Assembly: GCA_026387965.1 (NCBI GenBank) | Contig: JAPLKR010000090.1 | Span: 1 to 8,848 of the forward strand | Length of the DNA stretch: 8,848 bases | Source of the DNA: Fusobacteriota bacterium | GTDB taxonomy: Bacteria > Fusobacteriota > Fusobacteriia > JAPLKR01 | Direction: 5' to 3' | In this document: positions 1 to 8,848 of the stretch, piece by piece | How positions within the stretch are numbered: the stretch's first letter is position 1 | Layout: each line of letters starts with the position of its first letter | Notes under the pieces: generated by a model | Databases searched by the model: none | What the model saw: only the letters and a program-made list of their open reading frames with translations | What the model was told of the DNA's origin: nothing | Program-made: the position numbers and the translations under genes

Positions 1-236
1 AGCTTATCCTCATCAGAAAGAGGATTATGTTTTGAAGATTTTTTTGGTAGTTCACAGCATTGATGAAACTTCAAAACACATTGATAACCGCCGTCTACAT
101 ACAATTTTAACGTTATATTGATCGGCAGCATAGAAGCTTTAAATAAATCAAAATCATGATTTTTTCCTTTGCAAACATTAGTACATAAAATTTGCTTTTC
201 TGAACTAATTTCTATTTAAGCTTTTTGGCTCTTTCA
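1..236 (-). pseudogene. IS5-family transposase fragment (IS remnant), runs off left edge
   Basis: Read on the minus strand, positions 215 down to 3 give 71 uninterrupted codons. They contain 'KGKNHDFDLFK', then 'LYVDGGYQ', then 'LPKKSSKHNPLSDEDK'. This is the order seen in IS5-like DDE transposases (DDE_Tnp_4 type), where the Asp of the 'D-x-GYQG' block is a catalytic carboxylate. A TAA at 218-216 and a TGA at 236-234 interrupt the same frame upstream, and no N-terminal half with the first catalytic Asp can be found beyond them. The copy is therefore a 5'-truncated, inactivated remnant. Its 3' part lies outside the window, so I cannot say whether a terminal repeat survives there. Family assignment is from recognised motifs; the exact IS group is not determined. 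Confidence 0.75.
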
Positions 237-389: not shown

Positions 390-1015
390 ATGCAGCACCA
401 AAACATGCTGAAACTGTCTCGTTCACTACTTGCTTTATTTCTTATTCTTCGTCCGTTTGTGGTATTTTCACTGCTTAAACTTTTTGGGAAAAAATACCAC
501 TTTAAAGATAAGTTATTTTTAGCAAGGGAGGACTTAAAGGGGCAGTTCCAAATGTGTTTGCTGCTTTAATTTGTTAAGCTTCAATCGGGTCTAATACCCC
601 TCCGCTTGCGATGGGGATAGGGAATTTTAGGGTTGCCATATATATTTCCTATATCGTTGTATTCTCAGTGCTTGTTCAAGGTTCTACACTGTCGTGGCTT
701 GGAAGGAAATTTTGGGTTATTGTAGAAAATACGAGAAATATTAAAGAGAGCATCTCCATTGATGAGATAGAGTATTTTGAAGATCAACTTATTGAAGTTT
801 CAATTATGCCAAACTCTTGGCTTCAATCGAAATTGATACGGGATATTCGTCTACCTCTAAGTGCCTTAATAGTATCGGTTATACGTGAGAGAGAATATAT
901 CTATCCAAAAGCGAGTTTGCCATTAGAAGTGGGAGATAGACTTTTTATCTCAGTTGAAAATAGGGAAGCTCTTCTTAAATTCATAGAAGAACAGCACCAT
1001 ATTTTGGATAAATAG
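390..1015 (+). pseudogene. NhaP2-type K+(Na+)/H+ antiporter, C-terminal remnant with TrkA_C domain
   Basis: The frame from about 426 to 530 reads 'LLALFLILRPFVVFSLLKLF' and then 'KDKLFLARE'. After a one-base frame change near 525-533 it continues 'GLKGAVPNVFAALIC', a TAA at 575-577, then 'ASIGSNTPPLAMGIGNF' and 'VLVQGSTLSWLGRKFWV'. The 'GL(R/K)GAVP' and 'VLVQGSTLSWLG' blocks mark the last membrane helices of CPA1-type NhaP2 antiporters. The remainder (about 770-1010) is a TrkA_C (RCK_C) ligand-sensing domain with 'LPLSALIVSVIRE' and 'LEVGDRLFISVEN'. Family members run to about 500 residues, so roughly the first 300 are missing. An ATG at 611 opens 134 codons, but it lies inside the last membrane region and has no ribosome binding site. 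It is not a real start. The gene is truncated, frameshifted and stop-containing, so no working transporter is expected. Confidence 0.75.
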
Positions 1016-1056: not shown

Positions 1057-1085
1057 TTGACAAAATATCAGTATTTTGATATTAT
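1057..1085 (+). promoter_or_regulatory. Near-consensus sigma-70 promoter for the ABC-F leader/gene unit
   Basis: A perfect -35 box TTGACA (1057-1062) is followed after exactly 17 bases by TATTAT (1080-1085). The expected start of transcription is near 1092. This leaves a leader of about 220 nucleotides before the ABC-F start codon. A strong promoter before a resistance-type gene fits control at a later step, here the downstream terminator. Confidence 0.8.
1064..1083. repeat. Perfect 7-bp inverted repeat inside the promoter (candidate operator)
   Basis: AATATCA (1064-1070) and TGATATT (1077-1083) are exact reverse complements separated by six bases. The repeat fills the -35/-10 spacer and runs into the -10 box, where a bound repressor would block RNA polymerase. 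The same TATCA/TGATA half-sites occur near the two divergent promoters around 4900-5012. In DNA this rich in A and T such repeats also arise by chance, so the operator role is only a suggestion. Confidence 0.35.
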
Positions 1086-1118
1086 AAATCAAAGTTAGAT
1101 TTATAAGGAGGGTATAAA

Positions 1119-1163
1119 ATGATGAAAATGATTTTAAAAAATAAGCAATTGAATATTTTTTAA
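1119..1163 (+). CDS. 14-residue leader peptide MMKMILKNKQLNIF
   Basis: The ORF starts with two consecutive ATG codons (1119 and 1122) and ends at TAA 1161-1163. The site AAGGAGGG at 1105-1112 is nearly perfectly complementary to the 16S rRNA tail. It sits about seven bases before the first ATG and looks stronger than the site of the large gene downstream. A strong site in front of such a short reading frame is hard to explain unless translation of the frame is itself the signal. The peptide matches no leader I can name. I infer that it senses ribosome-targeting drugs by stalling and so controls the terminator at 1213-1240. A lysine-, methionine- and isoleucine-rich start is visible but proves nothing about the inducer. 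Confidence 0.65.
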   Translation: MMKMILKNKQLNIF

Positions 1164-1171
1164 CTTCATTT

Positions 1172-1216
1172 ATGGAAAATCATTATATATTCTGTGGTAT
1201 ACAGTTTGTATGGTAG
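1172..1216 (+). CDS. Possible second mini-ORF MENHYIFCGIQFVW, stop inside terminator stem
   Basis: An ATG eight bases after the first leader's stop opens a second 14-codon frame that ends in TAG at 1214-1216. This stop lies in the left arm of the terminator hairpin, so a ribosome finishing here would physically cover the stem. There is no Shine-Dalgarno sequence, so translation would have to come from re-initiation after the first leader. The frame may be accidental, but stop position and spacing suit coupling between translation and termination. Confidence 0.25.
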   Translation: MENHYIFCGIQFVW

Positions 1217-1240
1217 CCTATAATGTAGGCTACTTTTTTT
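1213..1240 (+). terminator. Intrinsic terminator in the ABC-F leader
   Basis: GTAGCCTA (1213-1220) and TAGGCTAC (1226-1233) form a perfect 8-bp stem with a five-base loop, followed at once by seven T residues (1234-1240). A smaller hairpin sits directly before it: TATACA 1198-1203 with TGTATG 1207-1212. The terminator lies about 120 bases after the promoter and before the ABC-F gene, so it would stop most transcripts unless something overrides it. Confidence 0.85.
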
Positions 1241-1264
1241 ATTGTAAAAATTTGGAGGTGTGAG

Positions 1265-1288
1265 ATGAAGCAAATATGGAAATCGTGA
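1265..1288 (+). CDS. Possible 7-residue mini-ORF MKQIWKS between terminator and ABC-F gene
   Basis: GGAGG at 1254-1258 sits six bases before ATG 1265, and the frame ends at TGA 1286-1288. The ABC-F ribosome binding site follows 13 bases later. A good ribosome binding site on a seven-codon frame is unusual. It could be a second, translational control layer, or the surviving start of a gene lost when the ABC-F gene arrived. I find no hairpin in which the ABC-F ribosome binding site would be masked, so I do not claim translational attenuation. Confidence 0.3.
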   Translation: MKQIWKS

Positions 1289-1311
1289 AAAAACAGAAAT
1301 AGAGGAGACAT

Positions 1312-2901
1312 ATGTTAAGTATTAAAAGATTGAGTTTTGAATATGAGAAAATTGAGGTCTTTAATGAGTTAGATTTTTCTATAGAAAAGGGAGAGCGAGT
1401 TGTCCTGTTAGGTGAAAATGGTCGAGGAAAATCCACGCTCTTAAAACTTATAGCAGGTAAGTTGAGTTATAAAAATGGAAAAATCCATGTAAGCGGTAGA
1501 GTGAATATAGGGTATATGCCGCAAGAGATAAATCCGTTTAATCACCTAACAGGAAGTGAATTTTTAGAGAGTGTATCAGGAGTAAAAGAGTGCTTAATCA
1601 GAGTAGAAAAAGCACTTGAAAATTATATTGGGAATCCTAAAGAGTATGAAGTTGCTTTAGAACAAGCAGTGAGTATGGAGGCATTTACCTTTGAACTTAG
1701 GGTGGATGAAGCTATAAAAAACATGAAGCTTGAAAAAGAAATACTTACTAGAAAGATCGCCACTTATTCAGGGGGAGAAAAAACGAGGCTATGTTTGATG
1801 GGGATATTGATTTCAAAATATGACCTTTATTTGCTCGATGAACCTACAAATAACTTAGATTTTTATGGATTGGAGTTATTAGAAGAGTTTATTAAAAATT
1901 CAAGTAGTAGTTTTATTATTGTCTCACATGATAAACGTTTTATTATAAATACCAGAAGTAGAATTGTAGAACTGTGTTCAAGCAGCGAAGTAAAATCTTA
2001 TAATTTAGGATTTGATGAGTACTTAGAGTGTAAGTTGAATGAGAGAAAATCTGTTGAAGAAAAATATCAAGAGTATGTGGAGAATATACAAAAAATTAGA
2101 ACAATCATTCATAAGAAAAGACGTGCGATTGAATCGACGGAGCGGAGTAAGTGTGTAAAAGACGGAAATAAGATAGCGTTCAATAACCATAAGGAAAAAG
2201 TTATAAGAAATTATGGAAATTCTCTAAATGCCTATAGTAAAAAACTTGATCGTCTTGAAGTGGTTGAACAACCAGATAGAATACGCGATATGAGTTTTAA
2301 GTTTTCATTGGATAATAGTAAAAGATCAAAACGATTGTTCAATATAGAAAGAGTTTTTGTACAGTATGAAGATCGAGAGTTAGGACCCTATAATTTTGAA
2401 TTAGAGAGCCAAGAAAGAGTCATCATTACTGGAGAAAATGGAAGTGGAAAAAGTACACTTTTGAAGCTATTGACGAAAGAGATTATGCCTTATATGGGAA
2501 GTATAAAGGTAGCGCCATATGCTAAAATTGGCTATATAAATCAAGAATACAAATTTAAATTTGAAGAGAAAAGCGTTATAGAAAATATTACAATTGAGTG
2601 TCAGATAAGTGTTGCGGAGGGGTATAATCTTTTAGCTAGGTTTAATATAAAAAAAGATAAAGCAGATGGGTTACCTCATGAGCTCACTCCAGGTCAAAGA
2701 GCTCGGGCACTACTAGCTTCAATGGCTATTAAACGAGTGAATGTTCTTATTTTAGATGAACCTACCAATCATTTAGATATGATGACTAGCTATGAACTTC
2801 AAAAAGCTATAAAAAGTTTTCAAGGTGCATTGATCGTTGTAACTCATGATCGTGATCTGATTGAGGCTATTGAAAATAAAAGGGTGTTTGAGATAAAATA
2901 A
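1312..2901 (+). CDS. ABC-F ATPase, probable antibiotic-resistance ribosomal protection protein
   Basis: The 529-residue protein has two ABC ATPase domains and no membrane segments, which defines the ABC-F class. Domain 1 shows Walker A GENGRGKS (34-41), Q-loop Gln71, signature SGGEK (153-157), Walker B with Asp176/Glu177 and switch His205. Domain 2 shows GENGSGKS (374-381), Gln411, an altered signature TPGQR (459-463), Asp482/Glu483 and His512. Both catalytic glutamates are present. A charged helical linker (about 240-330) joins the domains. In this family the linker reaches from the ribosomal E site toward the peptidyl-transferase centre and dislodges drugs such as lincosamides, streptogramins, pleuromutilins or macrolides. 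The ATG at 1312 follows AGAGGAG (1301-1307). The attenuator leader supports a drug-inducible resistance role over a housekeeping role of the EttA type. The drug class cannot be read from sequence. The gene sits beside IS debris and a broken gene, so acquisition by transfer is plausible. Confidence 0.85.
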   Translation: MLSIKRLSFEYEKIEVFNELDFSIEKGERVVLLGENGRGKSTLLKLIAGKLSYKNGKIHVSGRVNIGYMPQEINPFNHLTGSEFLESVSGVKECLIRVEKALENYIGNPKEYEVALEQAVSMEAFTFELRVDEAIKNMKLEKEILTRKIATYSGGEKTRLCLMGILISKYDLYLLDEPTNNLDFYGLELLEEFIKNSSSSFIIVSHDKRFIINTRSRIVELCSSSEVKSYNLGFDEYLECKLNERKSVEEKYQEYVENIQKIRTIIHKKRRAIESTERSKCVKDGNKIAFNNHKEKVIRNYGNSLNAYSKKLDRLEVVEQPDRIRDMSFKFSLDNSKRSKRLFNIERVFVQYEDRELGPYNFELESQERVIITGENGSGKSTLLKLLTKEIMPYMGSIKVAPYAKIGYINQEYKFKFEEKSVIENITIECQISVAEGYNLLARFNIKKDKADGLPHELTPGQRARALLASMAIKRVNVLILDEPTNHLDMMTSYELQKAIKSFQGALIVVTHDRDLIEAIENKRVFEIK

Positions 2902-8320: not shown

Positions 8321-8848
8321 ATGAAATACGCAAATCGGTTAAAGAATTTTACGATTTTTTTAATGTTCATAGTAATATTAATTGACATTATGAGCTATAG
8401 TATTGTTTTTCCTATAATGCCTGGGCTCTTTTATTCAAGTGCTGGGCTCATGCCACCAGGGAGTTCGCTTTTTTTAAGAAATATATTTTATGGGATTACT
8501 TTGGCAATTGGCCCCTTAGGAATATTCATTGGGCCACCCATATTAGGGAAACTTTCTGATATTATAGGGAGAAAAAAGGTAATTATTTATTGCCTAGCCA
8601 TTAATATTATTCTATATTTCATATCAGGATTTCTAATAATGTTTCATATGCTGATTTTATTTATTATTGTGAGATTTTTTATTGGACTTTTCGCTGGTAA
8701 CTTTGCTGCAGCACAAACGGTTATACTGGATTTTTGTGATAATGAAAAAGAAAAGATGAAAAACTTGGGATGGATCAGTTTAGCTGCTTACATTGCCTTA
8801 ATACTTGGACCTGCTGTTTCTGGAATCACAGTGGAGATTTTTTCTGAT
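8321..8848 (+). CDS. MFS drug:H+ antiporter-like transporter, N-terminal part (cut by window edge)
   Basis: The reading frame opens at ATG 8321, six bases after GGAG (8311-8314), and stays open for 176 codons to the end of the window, so the stop and the C-terminal half lie outside. Four to five hydrophobic helices are visible (about 11-32, 51-72, 87-105, 107-128, 151-170). The loop after helix 2 carries MFS motif A, GKLSDIIGRKK (76-86), with its Asp80 and Arg84. Helix 5 contains LGPAVSG (162-168), resembling antiporter motif C of the 12-helix drug:proton antiporters. An expanded loop after helix 1 (about 38-52, YSSAGLMPPGSS) is typical of a subgroup I associate with Legionellales. Function is probably efflux of a drug or small metabolite; the substrate is unknown. 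Confidence 0.85.
   Translation, partial: MKYANRLKNFTIFLMFIVILIDIMSYSIVFPIMPGLFYSSAGLMPPGSSLFLRNIFYGITLAIGPLGIFIGPPILGKLSDIIGRKKVIIYCLAINIILYFISGFLIMFHMLILFIIVRFFIGLFAGNFAAAQTVILDFCDNEKEKMKNLGWISLAAYIALILGPAVSGITVEIFSD

Follow-up and report, generated by a model that had tools for sequence, protein, structure and literature searches.

The region preceding a divergent ABC-F gene in the window, by which we mean the whole 8,848-nucleotide stretch of Fusobacteriota DNA analysed here, reads most readily as a 5' control region in which an intrinsic terminator throttles the gene. We give this reading a probability of about 0.4, relief of the terminator by ribosomes or drugs being its weaker part. Control of the ABC-F gene by the terminator is likely, and relief of the terminator most likely either follows an unrecognised route or has been lost to decay. 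The genome, 1.79 Mb in 141 contigs of which the window is one (C14), is the sole member of its genus, family and order. The elements are the following:

1057-1085, + strand: promoter (-35 TTGACA at 1057-1062, spacer of 17 nt, -10 TATTAT at 1080-1085)
1107-1112, + strand: Shine-Dalgarno (SD) site GGAGGG of leader ORF 1, hybrid energy -11.6 kcal/mol
1109-1193, + strand: long imperfect hairpin enclosing leader ORF 1 with its SD, -20.0 kcal/mol
1119-1163, + strand: leader ORF 1, SD-led, 14 codons, MMKMILKNKQLNIF, stop codon at 1161-1163
1172-1216, + strand: second reading frame, MENHYIFCGIQFVW and stop, no SD (SD energy +3.0)
1182-1214, + strand: alternative hairpin, apex 1192-1204, -9.5 kcal/mol
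1212-1240, + strand: intrinsic terminator, stem 1212-1234, T tract 1234-1240
1254-1260, + strand: SD site GGAGGTG of leader ORF 2, hybrid energy -13.1 kcal/mol
1265-1288, + strand: leader ORF 2, SD-led, MKQIWKS and stop, between terminator and ABC-F gene
1312-2901, + strand: ABC-F gene, 529 aa, two ABC_tran domains, SD at 1302-1307

Promoter, leader ORFs and terminator

The promoter agrees with the consensus at 11 of 12 positions and carries a TG ahead of the -10 hexamer. No other 11/12 site was found on the + strand of the window, although promoter-like sites as a whole are no more numerous in the window than expected by chance (43, versus 40.1 in shuffles). Transcription would start at about 1092. 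The leader peptide MMKMILKNKQLNIF shows no single-residue codon run of the kind that marks an amino-acid attenuator (trp/his type). The terminator stem is formed by 10 pairs (-13.3 kcal/mol) followed by seven T. Since the interval from the terminator to the ABC-F start holds no promoter-like site on the + strand, transcription of the gene from the promoter at 1057-1085 needs readthrough. The preliminary description had announced a near-consensus promoter, a 14-codon leader ORF with an almost perfect SD and an intrinsic terminator, in this order ahead of the ABC-F start codon; the three elements were borne out, and their order proved both real and unusual (see below). None of the 4227 covariance models of Rfam gave a match. 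Elsewhere in the same genome, a purine riboswitch was found (83 bits, L025 1751-1852, - strand).

The rarity of this layout was evaluated against a background of 296 kb of the same genome; for the gene survey the window and one further contig were included, which brought it to about 312 kb with 273 genes. Short ORFs of the form GGAGG-N4-9-ATG occur 5 times per 296 kb in non-coding DNA, counting both strands, and the window carries two SD-led short ORFs within 170 nt. A terminator lies at most 250 nt upstream of 20 of the 273 genes; 13 of these terminators stand just 3' of the preceding gene and 7 at least 120 nt away from it. An SD-led short ORF ahead of the terminator was found for a single gene out of 273, the ABC-F gene of the window, so the arrangement is not a habit of this genome.

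Leader ORF 2, absent from the preliminary description, has the strongest SD of the region. An extension of ORF 2 into the ABC-F start through TGA read as a sense codon was ruled out, TGA stopping 29 of 239 long ORFs. At two other loci of the phylum, seven-codon SD-led ORFs (VKIKLMA in L091, MKLKSIT in L094) lie about 20 nt 5' of an ABC-F start, in a position much like that of MKQIWKS but without a terminator. The second reading frame (1172-1216) begins with an AUG 8 nt past the stop of ORF 1 and ends with a stop codon inside the 5' arm of the terminator. A ribosome with its P site at or beyond 1202 was computed to abolish the terminator; the frame itself is probably due to chance.

RNA folding and the stall-switch test

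The long hairpin at 1109-1193, likewise missing from the preliminary description, spans 85 nt and buries the SD and the start of leader ORF 1. At -20.0 kcal/mol it is stronger than expected from 1000 dinucleotide shuffles of 1092-1196, which average -11.9 kcal/mol (p 0.011). Once this hairpin is opened, the alternative hairpin at 1182-1214 becomes available, with a small hairpin at its tip and an overlap of 3 nt with the terminator. Pairing of the terminator 5' arm with upstream RNA was no better than in shuffles (p 0.43). Downstream of the terminator the fold amounts to only -3.6 kcal/mol and the ABC-F start is not sequestered. Folding of the leader region, suggested earlier as a check on the proposed attenuator, returned the long hairpin and the terminator but no antiterminator competing with the latter.

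The capacity of a leader to switch was measured as the free-energy cost of forbidding every terminator-internal pair, computed once for the free RNA and once with a ribosome footprint placed on the leader start. The test penalises terminator pairs of either arm and its outcome was compared with spacer shuffles. Positive controls were three vga-type leaders (L063, L065 and the vga-like L064) and six ABC-F leaders from the phylum of the window, hereafter called fusobacterial. Listeria phage records considered as lmo0919 controls were dropped; among those compared with solved structures, L058 proved EttA-like and L061 something other than lmo0919. For the vga-type controls, stalling lowered the cost from 12.2 to 1.1, from 12.8 to 1.9 and from 7.5 to 2.6 kcal/mol, with shuffle p values of 0.007, 0/150 and 0.03, respectively. 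For the fusobacterial controls it fell from 14.3 to 0.7, 12.1 to 0.3, 11.9 to 0.3, 12.1 to 0.0, 10.8 to 0.0 and 6.5 to 0.0 kcal/mol, and the five of these six that were shuffled gave p values of at most 0.007.

In the window the cost of losing the terminator moved from 7.7 to 7.2 kcal/mol on stalling (shuffle p 0.48; 0.32 on including the T tract). When the footprint was scanned across all 15 codons the cost stayed between 5.3 and 9.5 kcal/mol, no stall position being of help, and calculations at 25 C and with the Turner 1999 energies gave the same negative outcome. Another leader, MKIDAKN followed by a terminator (L093), likewise fails the test. An antiterminator favoured by a stalled ribosome is thus predicted, at equilibrium, to be absent from the window leader, a prediction that leaves room for kinetic or protein-dependent control. 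The preliminary description had taken the region for a drug-sensing attenuator. The corresponding layout is present but the stall-responsive antiterminator is not; as the window RNA lacks the alternative fold of the known switches, drug control is possible only.

Conserved leaders elsewhere in the phylum

The phylum was represented by 98 genomes of one class. With NCBIfam NF000355 as the query model, at least 31 of the 98 genomes gave ABC-F genes above the cut-off, the gene of the window not being among the matches listed. At four loci (L069-L072), a leader MKKISC is followed by a terminator ending 19 nt 5' of the ABC-F gene; leaders MYNFSC (L066) and VNNISC (L074) precede other ABC-F genes, and L078 carries a variant. 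The conserved leader ORF ends on the consensus (I/F)SC-stop and lies in a long hairpin, after which comes the terminator. At these loci, a helix can form between two 3' strands, that of the leader hairpin (GCAGGAAAGUUA) and that of the terminator (UAACUUUCUUGC), and by inspection one pair of this helix is G-U, A-U or G-C according to the species. Folding of L066, L069-L072 and L074 predicts a clean stall-dependent switch. No paper describing such leaders was found in the literature searched, and from these predictions they look like an undescribed attenuator family.

Comparison with known systems

Antibiotic resistance (ARE) ABC-F genes are usually under leader/terminator control (PMC9226507, PMC10201436, PMC10314930, PMC12421871). 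With Bacillus subtilis vmlR (uORF MIN) and Clostridioides difficile cplR (uORF MRI), the window shares a leader ORF in the first hairpin, a terminator and the ABC-F gene (PMC9226507, PMC10201436). Its hairpin at 1109-1193 sits where vmlR has the anti-antiterminator, and the small middle hairpin of vmlR can likewise be drawn in the window (PMC9226507). The window differs from both by a leader of 14 codons instead of 3, by the lack of an antiterminator able to compete with the terminator, by an ABC-F start that is not sequestered and by the extra ORF 2. The staphylococcal vga(A) leaders (L063 and L065, with the vga-like L064) have in common with it a long hairpin around a mini-ORF, the kind of terminator tail (TTTTATTGT) and the ABC-F gene, but they pass the stall-switch test (from 7.5-12.8 down to 1.1-2.6 kcal/mol), which the window fails.

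The msrD leader (MYLIFM) has the same type of SD (GGAGGGATATTTATG against GGAGGGTATAAAATG) and the same order of leader, terminator and ABC-F gene (PMC10314930). In msrD, the leader stop adjoins the terminator and the stalled ribosome blocks the latter directly (PMC10314930), whereas in the window 48 nt separate the leader stop (1161-1163) from the terminator (1212). With such a gap, and a P site that must reach about 1202, the leader lies too far away for direct blockage of the msrD type. The fusobacterial leaders (MKKISC, MYNFSC and VNNISC) share with the window the phylum, the order of the elements and the long hairpin around the leader ORF; they differ from it by a strong antiterminator pairing with the terminator 3' arm, and their ABC-F proteins belong to another clade. 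By its defining features the window leader fits neither the vga/vmlR type nor the msrD type, yet it may work like one of them.

The ABC-F protein and its homologues

The ABC-F protein scores 382.4 bits against NF000355 (ribosomal protection-like ABC-F), which it passes by 2.4 bits over the cut-off of 380, and stays far under the cut-offs of the Sal, Vga, Msr, Lsa, CplR, OptrA and producer families. Judged from these profile scores it just passes as a divergent ABC-F of the ribosomal-protection type, outside any named subfamily. Its nearest homologue (40% identity) comes from an uncultured genome of 0.6 Mb and the next two (34% each) from the same phylum as that genome. In the tree, the protein and these three homologues form a fully supported clade that excludes Vga, MsrD and the fusobacterial ABC-F proteins; the deeper placement of the clade is unsure because its branches are long. 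The predicted structure is a poor model (pLDDT 52, from an alignment of two sequences).

No ABC-F homologue was found in viral contigs, and matches on plasmids and phages are at most 33% identical. In 391 and 392 genomes sampled around Clostridium and Treponema centres, respectively, none was detected at an E value of 1e-85, in a weak search where three candidates were scored per genome. The search for the leader upstream of homologous ABC-F genes went against the earlier proposal: none was seen before the three nearest homologues, and the leader had no match above AT-rich noise in the 97 other genomes of the phylum. As no close homologue was found, this non-conservation is weak evidence. The suggestion of an undescribed inducible resistance unit accordingly keeps, on the one side, an ABC-F protein that just passes NF000355 and loses, on the other, the antiterminator and the conservation of the leader, which makes such a unit "possible" only.

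A second copy of the promoter-leader region

Positions 415-1157 of the window are repeated with 86% identity on another contig (C54, L057 3030-3748). The repeat comprises the 3' end of a Na+/H+ antiporter gene and the promoter-leader DNA, and a different half is intact in each copy: the antiporter gene is complete in C54 and a broken remnant in the window. The coding part (641-1015) is 95.7% identical between the copies, with 10 non-synonymous versus 5 synonymous codon changes, and the 103 bases from the antiporter stop codon to the leader are about 82% identical. The C54 copy keeps the -35 and the SD block; its -10 reads TTTTTT, the leader start codons are lost and the frame is shifted, and neither a terminator nor an ABC-F gene was found downstream. 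From the alignment, this state would fit a loss of the unit where the ABC-F gene is absent.

C54 ends with the same 141 bases with which C14 begins (window 1-141), an exact overlap that lies within a fragment of a DDE_Tnp_4 transposase. Neighbouring contigs of an assembly graph share such end overlaps, and this one is probably an assembly-graph edge, so that a few kilobases, including an IS fragment, may separate the two copies. The antiporter remnant also carries an inserted repeat of about 85 bases (window 570-653), which recurs with 86% identity elsewhere in the genome (L023 1733-1819). At the other end of the window (8321-8848) begins an MFS efflux gene, a weak relative of tetracycline exporters, which the contig end truncates.

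Alternative explanations

In the preferred reading, most transcripts starting at about 1092 would stop at about 1240, and the ABC-F protein, made from readthrough RNA only, would be kept low by the terminator. Ribosomes on the leader may modulate readthrough and, by analogy with known systems, translation-inhibiting drugs might then raise ABC-F, which is the weaker step. Such a response would not go through an antiterminator of the vga, vmlR or fusobacterial SC-stop type, none being encoded; it would need a route that does not rely on pairing, for instance pausing of RNA polymerase or re-initiation at the AUG at 1172 by ribosomes that then run into the terminator stem. The strength and order of the elements argue for such a throttle, with the sole promoter on this strand before the gene and the terminator in between, as do the uniqueness of the combination among 273 genes, the leader hairpin exceeding shuffles (p 0.011), the decay of -10, start codons and frame in the copy devoid of ABC-F, and the same layout with a predicted working switch before other ABC-F genes of the phylum. 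Against this reading stand the lack of a stall-responsive antiterminator, the non-conservation of the leader in homologues and the single locus. Another possibility, which we find doubtful but worth retaining, is that the switch was lost or never existed and that a leaky terminator simply holds ABC-F at a low level without induction. The leader RNA encodes no switch, the leader is not conserved elsewhere and the neighbourhood is decaying (antiporter remnant with the codon changes given above, IS fragment); yet the window has kept its promoter, SD, leader frame and terminator intact, while the copy that lacks ABC-F has lost both its -10 and its start codons.

A classical attenuator, in which a ribosome stalled by a drug on MMKMILKNKQLNIF opens 1109-1193 and the hairpin at 1182-1214 antiterminates and lets the polymerase read through, appears unlikely. 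An anti-antiterminator, an antiterminator with a small apical hairpin and a terminator can be drawn as in vmlR (PMC9226507), and, while the terminator is still incomplete, stalling draws 1208-1214 into the alternative hairpin. However, this hairpin overlaps the terminator by 3 nt only and the equilibrium favours the terminator in every stall state, pairs from 1213 inward keeping probabilities of 0.98-1.0 and only 1212 dropping, and where the nine positive controls fall to 0-3 kcal/mol the window stays at 5-9.5. An elaborate two-step form without an antiterminator, where ribosomes that have completed leader ORF 1 re-initiate at the AUG at 1172, a drug-arrested ribosome close to the stop of this second frame, inside the terminator stem, holds the terminator open and ORF 2 couples translation into ABC-F, seems very improbable. 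Scarcely better placed is an ordinary terminator of the upstream unit accompanied by a chance mini-ORF, the ABC-F gene being transcribed from an unseen promoter. It would agree with promoter-like sites no commoner in the window than in shuffles and with the 13 of 20 terminators standing just behind the preceding gene; but in the window about 195 nt separate the terminator from the preceding gene, a promoter and an SD-led ORF of its own stand in front of it, and SD-led mini-ORFs are rare in this genome.

Significance

A response to drugs, if it exists, would make the region an attenuator that lacks any recognisable antiterminator and controls an ABC-F lineage with no named relative. Without such a response, the layout of leader ORF, terminator and ABC-F gene would be insufficient to call a drug switch. 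The calibrated stall-switch test tells these two cases apart, and its use within the same phylum brought to light a conserved family of SC-stop leaders whose RNA passes it.
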